Assembly: GCF_003944705.1 (NCBI RefSeq)
Contig: NZ_RWIS01000003.1
Span: forward strand, 310,001-374,000
Origin: Hymenobacter metallilatus
GTDB lineage: Bacteria; Bacteroidota; Bacteroidia; Cytophagales; Hymenobacteraceae
Length of the DNA stretch: 64,000 nt
Direction of reading: 5' to 3'
Shown: one piece after another, positions 1-31,972 of the stretch
How positions within the stretch are numbered: position 1 is the first letter of the stretch
Layout: every line of letters begins with the position of its first letter
Position numbers and translations under genes: made by a program
Notes under the pieces: model-generated
What the model was told of the DNA's origin: nothing
The model's input: only the letters and a program-made list of their open reading frames with translations
Databases searched by the model: none

Positions 1-1
1 G

Positions 2-94
2 CAGGGCAATATTGCGCTGCCTTTCAACTCAGCGGGTATGTACCGGGCCTACCGCAAAGCCAGCGGGGAGCGGCAGGTACTGATATATCGGTAA
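2..94 (+). CDS. C-terminal fragment of a CDS truncated by the window edge
   Basis: Open frame QGNIALPFNSAGMYRAYRKASGERQVLIYR* followed by a terminator hairpin; identity not determinable. Confidence 0.6.
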   Translation, partial: QGNIALPFNSAGMYRAYRKASGERQVLIYR

Positions 95-156: not shown

Positions 157-267
157 TTTACGCAGTGTTTTCTACGCAGAAAGCCCGACCTTTGCGGCCA
201 GATTGCAAAAAAACGGCGGAAACGCTGCCGATACTAACAGGAAGCCGGTTACCGGGGGGGGGAATGG

Positions 268-301
268 AAAAAGAAAAGGCGGCACCCACCCAGATGCCGC
301 C
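268..301 (-). terminator. Terminator of the minus-strand tRNA-like transcription unit
   Basis: Minus strand GGCGGCA-TCTGGGTGGG-TGCCGCC followed by TTTTCTTTTT. Confidence 0.75.
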
Positions 302-374: not shown

Positions 375-489
375 CTGTAGAAGAAGGAGTCGAACCTCCA
401 CGGAGTAGTTAGCCGGCCGCCGGACCAGTTTTTCCCGAATCTCCACCCCCGAGAGAGGAGGGCGTGTCTGCCAGTTTCACCATTCTACA
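375..489 (-). tRNA. tRNA-like gene, Leu/Ser-type body, apparent CUC anticodon and ~46-nt variable region; may be noncanonical or a pseudo-tRNA
   Basis: Perfect 7-bp acceptor TGTAGAA/TTCTACA, T8, D-arm GTG-AAACTGGCAGA-CAC, anticodon stem CCCTC/GGGGG with loop CTCTCTC, T-arm GGAGG-TTCGACT-CCTTC, discriminator G, no encoded CCA. Confidence 0.6.
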
Positions 490-528: not shown

Positions 529-536
529 CAAATGTA
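529..536 (-). promoter_or_regulatory. Bacteroidetes-type -7 box upstream of the tRNA-like gene
   Basis: Minus strand TACATTTG matches the TAnnTTTG consensus, ~40 nt upstream of the tRNA-like 5' end; no good -33 box seen. Confidence 0.45.
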
Positions 537-645: not shown

Positions 646-1131
646 ATGGCTCGTAATTACGAACTTGACGACACCGACCGGAAGATTCTGGCCCTGTTGA
701 TTGATGATGCGAAAATGCCTTACACCGAAATTGCCCGCAAGGTGCATGTTTCGGGTGGCACAGTACACGTCCGGATGGCTCGGCTGGAGGAACTGGGTAT
801 TGTGCAGGGCGCAACGCTCAAGATTGATTACCAGAAACTTGGCTATGGTGTACGGGCATTTCTGGGAATCTATCTGCAGAAAAGCTCCGTGTACGAAAGC
901 GTAGTGACGGCACTGCGGCTGATTCCGGAAGTGGTTAGCATCGACTTCACGACGGGGGCTTACGGTATTTTTGCCCGCCTGATCTGCCGCGACACCAACC
1001 ATCTGCGGGAAGTGCTACACGAACAGATTCAGCTGATCGAGGGTATTGAGCGCACCGAGACTCTCATTTCCTTGGAAGAAGCCTTCAACCGGCCTATTCA
1101 GCTGCAGGAAATAGAGGAGGACGCCAGCTAA
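646..1131 (+). CDS. Lrp/AsnC family transcriptional regulator
   Basis: N-terminal HTH (LDDTDRKILALLIDDAKMPYTEIARKVHVSGGTVHVRMARLEELGIV) and a RAM-like C-terminal domain. Confidence 0.93.
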   Translation: MARNYELDDTDRKILALLIDDAKMPYTEIARKVHVSGGTVHVRMARLEELGIVQGATLKIDYQKLGYGVRAFLGIYLQKSSVYESVVTALRLIPEVVSIDFTTGAYGIFARLICRDTNHLREVLHEQIQLIEGIERTETLISLEEAFNRPIQLQEIEEDAS

Positions 1132-30913: not shown

Positions 30914-31972
30914 ATGAAAATCCTCGTTCTGCGCTTTTCCTCCATCGGCGACATTGTGCTGACTACGCCCGTGGTGCGGGGCTTGAAGCTGCAAGTGGCA
31001 AACGCAGAAGTGCACTTTGCCACCAAGCCGGCCTTTCGGGGTATTCTGGAAGCCAATCCTTACGTGGACAAGGTGCACTGCCTCAATGGGGCGTTGGGGG
31101 AGCTGGTAGCCGCGCTGAAAGCTGAGCAGTTCGATTTCGTGGTGGATTTGCATCACAACCTGCGCACGACCCTCATTAAGGCTCAGCTGGGCGTAAAATC
31201 GGCCAGCTTTGATAAGCTGAACTGGCGCAAGTGGCTGCTGGTGAACCTGAAGATAGATACCCTGCCCCGGGTGCACATTGTGGAGCGGTACTTAGCCGCA
31301 GTGGCCCCGCTGGGCGTGCGCAACGACGGCAAAGGCCTCGATTATTTTATTCCGGCGGCCGATGAGGTAGCCGTGGATGAGGTGTTGCCGCCGGCCTTCC
31401 GGCAGGGGTACGTGGCTTTTGCCATCGGGGCCCAACACGCCACCAAGCGCCTGCCCGTGGAGCGGATCATTGAGCTGTGCGGGCTGCTGCGGCGGCCCGT
31501 GGTGCTGCTGGGAGGCCCCGCCGACGAAACCACCGGCCACGTGGTAGAGCTGGCCTTCGACCAGGGGGCAGCCACCTCGCCGCCCGCGCCCGGCCGCATC
31601 CCCGACAGCCCGTACTACTTCCCTAAGCAGTCAGCAACCACCAACCACCAATCCACACTCATTTACAACGCCTGCGGCCGGTTCAGCCTCAACCAATCGG
31701 CCTCCCTGGTGCGGCAGGCTAGTTTGGTAGTGAGTCACGACACCGGCCTGATGCACATTGCGGCGGCGTTCCGCAAGGAAATTCTGAGCGTGTGGGGCAA
31801 TACGGTGCCGGCGTTTGGTATGTATCCTTACCGTACCGAGTTCCGGGTGCTGGAAGTACAGGGGCTGGACTGCCGGCCCTGCTCCAAAATAGGCTACGAG
31901 CAATGCCCCAAGGGCCATTTTCGCTGTATGCGCGACATTCGCTTCGACCTGGAGCTGCCCGCAGCCCCTTAG
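30914..31972 (+). CDS. glycosyltransferase family 9 (heptosyltransferase-like)
   Basis: MKILVLRFSSIGDIVLTTPVVRGLKLQ...SLVVSHDTGLMHIAAAFRKEILSVWG. Confidence 0.92.
   Translation: MKILVLRFSSIGDIVLTTPVVRGLKLQVANAEVHFATKPAFRGILEANPYVDKVHCLNGALGELVAALKAEQFDFVVDLHHNLRTTLIKAQLGVKSASFDKLNWRKWLLVNLKIDTLPRVHIVERYLAAVAPLGVRNDGKGLDYFIPAADEVAVDEVLPPAFRQGYVAFAIGAQHATKRLPVERIIELCGLLRRPVVLLGGPADETTGHVVELAFDQGAATSPPAPGRIPDSPYYFPKQSATTNHQSTLIYNACGRFSLNQSASLVRQASLVVSHDTGLMHIAAAFRKEILSVWGNTVPAFGMYPYRTEFRVLEVQGLDCRPCSKIGYEQCPKGHFRCMRDIRFDLELPAAP

Follow-up and report, generated by a model that had tools for sequence, protein, structure and literature searches.

Sequence comparison identifies a real, unannotated family of tRNA-shaped RNAs that is found across the phylum Bacteroidota and is represented by a 115-nt gene in the window, the 64,000-nt stretch of Hymenobacter metallilatus DNA analysed here. 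Taken with published determinants, the fixed positions of the RNA unite the charging signals for aspartate with the signal for entry into GatCAB, a combination carried by no ordinary tRNA of the window genome, and the RNA may be a non-decoding carrier on which asparagine is made. The gene, its parts and its neighbours lie in the window as follows.

375 to 489, minus strand: tRNA-like RNA gene of 115 nt, U1 through G73, CCA not encoded; scores 135.7 bits with model R1
483 to 489, minus strand: acceptor 5' strand TGTAGAA; U1-A72, G2-C71 and U3-A70 invariant (n = 135)
375 to 382, minus strand: acceptor 3' strand TTCTACA and discriminator G73 (375); G73 invariant
464 to 480, minus strand: D-arm GTG-AAACTGGCAGA-CAC; G18G19, then C20 and A21, with 20a absent; Leu/Gln-like
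446 to 462, minus strand: anticodon arm CCCTC-CTCTCTC-GGGGG, loop at 451 to 457; U35, C36 and C38 invariant
400 to 445, minus strand: 46-nt variable region with a GGAG/CTCC stem, an A-rich internal loop with CTAAC, and the inner hairpin CTGGTC/GGCCGG
383 to 399, minus strand: T-arm GGAGG-TTCGACT-CCTTC
529 to 536, minus strand: Bacteroidota-type -7 box TACATTTG, upstream of the RNA gene
267 to 301, minus strand: intrinsic terminator GGCGGC-ATCTGGGTGGGT-GCCGCC followed by a T-rich run, downstream of the RNA gene
646 to 1131, plus strand: Lrp/AsnC-family regulator gene, 161 aa, divergent
1 to 94, plus strand: end of an Asparaginase_2 / beta-aspartyl-peptidase gene that starts to the left of the window

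The initial annotation, made from the sequence of the window, had described a noncanonical tRNA-like gene here. Its acceptor, T8, D-arm, CTCTCTC loop, U1-A72 pair, G73 and T-arm are all in place, as is the 46-nt variable region with its GGAG/CTCC stem and inner hairpin, and the TAnnTTTG box upstream and terminator (GC hairpin and T-run) downstream are present as sequence signals. That annotation did not extend to the family's spread across the phylum, the determinants for AspRS and GatCAB, the AsnC-type gene on the opposite strand or the co-occurrence with GatB.

Structure of the RNA

The RNA has the hallmarks of a cloverleaf, namely a 7-bp acceptor (483-489 paired with 376-382 in the window), a T-arm of the form TTCRANY and G18G19 in the D-arm. 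In a 25-sequence alignment all six helices were supported, with 54 two-sided compensatory cells against 18.7 in shuffles. Among 135 distinct sequences from across the phylum there were 556 compensatory cells against 168.9 in shuffles, and 97.6% of cells were paired, compared with 52.9-61.0% when the partner was slid; because the structure was fitted by a covariance model, these pairing and compensation counts are biased in its favour. The folding energy (z = +0.59) is uninformative as evidence.

The variable region ranges from 40 to 122 nt in relatives, and its covarying inner hairpin is flanked by the motifs A-Y-AAA and CUAAC. Long variable regions in several families (L200, L206, L215, L218, L236 and L237) hold a motif similar to GGGTTGACCAC(T)A, which suggests an extra conserved subdomain. 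Pairing of the UCUC loop with a variable-region GGGAUA was considered and rejected, since the GGGA is not conserved (e.g. AAGUAUAAA, CAGCAUAAA) and is absent from the short form described below.

Detection and distribution

The RNA at 375-489 was not reported by ARAGORN, matched none of the 4227 families of Rfam 15 at the gathering score, and was not reported when RF00005 was run over the whole genome at E<=10, a search that returned 43 other tRNA genes. Several divergent members of the family likewise matched no Rfam family, and we found no description of the RNA in open-licence papers. The window genome's 43 tRNAs are an unremarkable complement, with five for Leu, four for Ser and two Glu(ttc) among them, so there is no obvious translational need for the additional gene. 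ARAGORN also called a 95-nt tRNA-Pro(ggg) at 31055-31149, where Rfam gave no match and the sequence is protein-coding-like; this call is probably a false positive.

The initial annotation had suggested looking for the locus in relatives and checking covariation. Within the genus (Hymenobacter and relatives), BLAST detected the RNA in 94 of 120 genomes, and all helices covary strongly. A covariance model built from the RNA showed that the long form also occurs in other genera of the home family, in most Cytophagales genomes and in additional families of both class and phylum, including Cyclobacteriaceae, Saprospiraceae, Chitinophaga and Flammeovirga. Of the genomes sampled from the order Cytophagales, 304 of 391 matched at E<=1e-11; short forms are counted here, and the weakest matches may include a few ordinary tRNAs. 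Phylum-wide matches of about 60 bits (E <= 1e-11) were rejected as family members: the six inspected (L230-L235) are ordinary tRNA-Leu, and three other genomes in this band were excluded by analogy. A mobile or phage element was also rejected, as phage and plasmid collections gave no match. The earlier option of a decayed tRNA is refuted by conservation and covariation throughout the phylum, true decay being seen in a few lineages only (L035, L038, L046 and L054).

About 25 genomes of the genus carried only a 76-nt form (e.g. L162:6026-6101, minus; L163:5691-5766, plus; L165:5807-5882, plus), in which the variable domain is absent, the loop is CUAUCUC and the stem is fully changed (CUAGC/GCUAG). 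ARAGORN calls this form tRNA-Asp(atc), whereas the long form goes uncalled. The two forms are mutually exclusive in the genus, and at the Lrp loci of five short-form genomes only a degenerate remnant of the RNA is left. This replacement suggests that the essential function lies in the body and loop and not in the variable domain. The gene also occurs in tandem arrays of four to seven copies, tens of bases apart (L179:5368-6398, L188:5703-6450, L194:5287-6062).

Fixed positions and identity determinants

Invariant in all 135 sequences were U1-A72, G2-C71, U3-A70, U8, G73, U35, C36 and C38, within an anticodon-loop consensus of Y-N-N-U-C-U/C-C; nucleotide 20a was absent from the D-loop in 139 of 140. 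Position 34 varies (G 98, A 25, C 7, U 5); among the 58 loops of the window's genus that were resolved and end in the conserved UCUC, it was C in 45 and A in 13. The home genus therefore shows CUC or AUC as its apparent anticodon and other lineages mostly GUC, and CUC, which the initial annotation had read, is not a fixed anticodon. Position 33 was U in 108 sequences and another nucleotide in 27, and position 37 was U in 122, C in 11 and G in 2, never A. With no dependable U33 and no A37, the loop is by its sequence ill suited to decoding, in support of the earlier suggestion of a non-decoding tRNA-like RNA. The alternative put forward with it, a Leu/Ser-type missense tRNA reading GAG, finds no support: the leucine discriminator A73, as in the genome's own tRNA-Leu, is never present, and G73, the variable position 34, the non-decoding loop and the full Leu/Ser/Glu tRNA set are grounds for rejecting it.

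The published determinants for aspartate are G73, G34, U35, C36 and C38, with G2-C71 as a minor one; G1-C72 is described as crucial in bacterial tRNA-Asp (PMC9976931). For GatCAB, U1-A72 is the determinant for amidation, and G1-C72 and U20a are the antideterminants in tRNA-Asp; U1-A72 likewise marks Glu-tRNA-Gln (PMC9976931). The RNA has G73, U35, C36, C38 and the minor G2-C71 in 135 of 135 sequences and, in place of G1-C72, U1-A72 in all of them. U1-A72 together with the absence of U20a gives it the features of a GatCAB substrate.

Among the tRNAs of the window genome, only tRNA-Asp (loop CUGUCAC, G73, G1-C72, U20a) also has the U35-C36-N-C38 loop together with G73. The tRNA-Asn has G1-C72, the tRNA-Gln has U1-A72 but A73, and the tRNA-Glu has A73. 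Given the cited determinants, the fixed positions therefore unite the signals for aspartate charging with the GatCAB entry signal, as no ordinary tRNA of this genome does. The C or A at position 34 weakens the aspartate reading in the window's genus.

Co-occurrence with GatB and absence of AsnB

In a 72-genome set, all of which have AsnRS, GatB was present in 41 of 41 RNA-bearing genomes. GlnRS is missing from all 32 home-family genomes tested and from a few others, so that GatCAB is needed for Gln-tRNA in these genomes, in the home family regardless of the RNA; many related families do have GlnRS. Where GlnRS and AsnRS are both present, GatCAB is dispensable for making Gln-tRNA or Asn-tRNA. 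Across the 33 such genomes, 19 had the RNA and GatB, 13 had neither, one had GatB only and none had the RNA only, an agreement in 32 of 33 (p = 2e-8, a value that takes no account of descent). In a sample of 346 genomes from the phylum, 34 of 34 RNA-bearing genomes had GatB (excluding nine genomes whose sole match scores about 60 bits), and all 70 genomes without GatB were without the RNA.

The co-occurrence is confounded by descent, and the independent contrasts are few: five genomes with both and two with neither in one family (f23, p = 0.048), and eight with both, two with neither and one with GatB only in another (f24, p = 0.055). A published survey found that genera with AsnRS, GlnRS and GatCAB carry a U1-A72 tRNA-Asn (PMC4206432), so tRNA-Asn could itself be a GatCAB substrate in some such genomes. 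A GatB-less genome (L272) also has a U1-A72 tRNA-Asn, which means that the pair is not diagnostic by itself.

True AsnB (E. coli type, NF006949) was found in none of the 41 RNA-bearing genomes and is present in most genomes that have neither GatB nor the RNA. In the set with both GlnRS and AsnRS it occurred in 0 of 19 genomes with the RNA versus 10 of 14 without (p = 1e-5); two AsnB proteins were checked by HMM (908 and 920 bits, cut-off 499) and the rest were classed by alignment pattern and sequence. In RNA-bearing genomes, those AsnB-family proteins that were scored fell below the AsnB cut-off, and matches in G237 and G220 were rejected because their sequence is not of AsnB type. Several home-family genomes have neither the RNA nor AsnB (e.g. 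G003, G029, G117, G148 and G151), and their asparagine must have another source.

Genomic neighbourhood and transcription signals

A divergent gene of the Lrp/AsnC family stands upstream of the RNA, at a distance of 100-330 bp, at 44 of 94 loci spread over many families. The best curated match of this gene is AsnC, with a score below the cut-off. In one genus (g2) aspS stands directly behind this regulator, and in several lineages genes of 481 aa and 252 aa, which by eye resemble SufB and SufC, lie behind it. In the window the other neighbour of the RNA is the Asparaginase_2 gene. Neighbours seen in a single genus are weak evidence, and many copies of the RNA lie far from the AsnC-type regulator.

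A terminator-like hairpin is found in the 3' flank of 97 of 140 relatives, compared with 6.8 in shuffles, and 28 of 140 have a TAnnTTTG box no more than 25 nt upstream, compared with 2.2 in shuffles. In the window the -7 box is farther out, 39 nt from the RNA, a spacing that implies a processed 5' leader. To judge from these sequence signals, promoter and terminator are those of a free-standing gene. Two hairpins lie 3' of the RNA on the minus strand (278-301 and 312-334), with the loop ATCTGGGTGGGT common to both and with different stems. The paired CTGGGTGG motif is found at 44 of 69 loci of the genus and at 0 of 140 loci of other genera, and it is kept where the RNA has decayed.

Proposed function

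From these observations we infer that the RNA is expressed, charged with aspartate and amidated, and we likewise infer the fate of the asparagine and the regulation of the gene. AspRS would recognise G73, U35-C36 and C38, with G34 in most lineages, and attach aspartate. GatCAB would recognise U1-A72 and amidate the aspartyl-RNA to asparaginyl-RNA, and the asparagine would be released or handed on, supplying the cell without AsnB. An asparagine-charged RNA with an aspartate-like anticodon would have to be kept off the ribosome, where Asp codons would be misread; the unreliable U33, the missing A37 and the large variable domain are proposed to keep it off. In E. coli, AsnC is an activator of asnA that responds to asparagine (PMC8707732), and by analogy the divergent AsnC-type protein probably controls the RNA gene.

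Judged from the sequences, this model, in which aspartate attached by AspRS to a non-decoding RNA is amidated by GatCAB, is on balance just probable. What counts against it is the C or A at position 34 in the genus of the window, the absence of G1-C72, the home-family genomes with neither the RNA nor AsnB, and the U1-A72 tRNA-Asn published for genera with AsnRS, GlnRS and GatCAB. The further-reaching claim, that Bacteroidota make asparagine on a dedicated non-decoding tRNA-shaped carrier under the control of an AsnC-type regulator, is more tentative and falls somewhat short of probable.

An unlikely alternative is that GluRS charges the RNA with glutamate and GatCAB amidates it to Gln-RNA, or that the charged amino acid is supplied to a transferase acting on peptide, lipid or cell wall. 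The U1-A72 pair also marks Glu-tRNA-Gln, the CUC seen in the home genus would be an anticodon for Glu, and the tRNA-Gln of the window genome has UGU/ACA and a similar D-arm in common with the RNA. However, most lineages have G at position 34, with U in only 5 of 135 sequences, C38 and G73 are invariant, whereas the tRNA-Glu and tRNA-Gln of the window genome carry A73, and the AsnC-type neighbour and the complementarity with AsnB favour asparagine.

About as unlikely is a regulatory tRNA mimic that signals amino-acid or charging status by binding to AspRS, GatCAB or the AsnC-type protein, with no role as a metabolic carrier. The conserved divergent AsnC-type gene, the free-standing gene with its promoter and terminator signals, and the large variable domain, in which AYAAA and CUAAC are conserved, would all suit such a mimic. 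The invariant acceptor end, G73 and U1-A72 suit a substrate better than a decoy, though, and the tandem copies (up to seven, L179) suggest that quantity is needed, while many copies are distant from the regulator.

It is improbable that shared ancestry alone explains the co-occurrence with GatCAB and that the function of the RNA is unrelated. Genomes without either trait do belong for the most part to a few families, f26 among them, and the contrasts within families are small. Nevertheless, the association persists within two families and also in another class (f66), and the RNA itself separately bears the known GatCAB determinant. An additional decoding tRNA of Asp or Glu type with an enlarged variable arm is very improbable, for despite a complete cloverleaf with canonical T-arm and D-arm and a GUC anticodon in most lineages, the loop lacks A37 always and U33 often, the window genome already has full ordinary tRNA sets, U1-A72 would send the RNA to GatCAB and cause Asp-to-Asn misreading, and the entire RNA is absent from many relatives.

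If the carrier reading is true, it would explain why many Bacteroidota with both GlnRS and AsnRS retain GatCAB, and it would give genomes without AsnB a route to asparagine. A tRNA-like RNA would then have been retained as a dedicated carrier in primary metabolism, with a housekeeping pathway running on a noncoding RNA that evolved to avoid the ribosome. Whatever the function, this is a conserved and often multi-copy RNA family that is absent from Rfam 15 and whose long form ARAGORN does not call.

Comparison with known systems

The tRNA-Leu of type II resembles the RNA in D-arm sequence, long variable arm and general cloverleaf, but the RNA has G73 for A73, no leucine anticodon and a far longer variable region. 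Bacterial tRNA-Asp shares G73, G2-C71, U35, C36 and C38, and G34 in most lineages; unlike it, the RNA has U1-A72 for G1-C72, no U20a, a nucleotide other than A at position 37, a Leu/Gln-like D-arm and a long variable arm. Exceptional tRNAs such as tRNA-Sec, allo-tRNAs and other unusual cloverleaves also have an expanded variable arm, whereas the RNA combines an ordinary 7-bp acceptor and 5-bp T-stem with a loop unfit for decoding. The tRNA-like domain of tmRNA is a charged, non-decoding tRNA-like RNA, as is proposed here; the RNA described here differs in having no reading frame, in not being called as tmRNA by ARAGORN, and in its complete D- and anticodon arms.

In the E. coli asnC-asnA pair, as here, a divergent AsnC-family regulator stands by a gene that produces asparagine (as proposed for the RNA), although the partner there is asparagine synthetase A and here an RNA gene. 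Synthesis of asparagine on tRNA-Asn is known from Deinococcus, Thermus and Bdellovibrio (PMC4206432). The transamidosome, in which a non-discriminating AspRS and GatCAB act with tRNA-Asn, is alike in that GatCAB is kept despite GlnRS and AsnRS, asparagine synthetase is lacking (here judged by AsnB), and the RNA bears U1-A72 and G73. It is unlike in that the RNA here is not tRNA-Asn, having C36 for U36, a non-decoding loop and a variable region of 40-122 nt, and in that a discriminating AspRS could suffice. The making of asparagine on an RNA is thus a type of pathway already known; a dedicated non-decoding RNA for such a pathway would be new.
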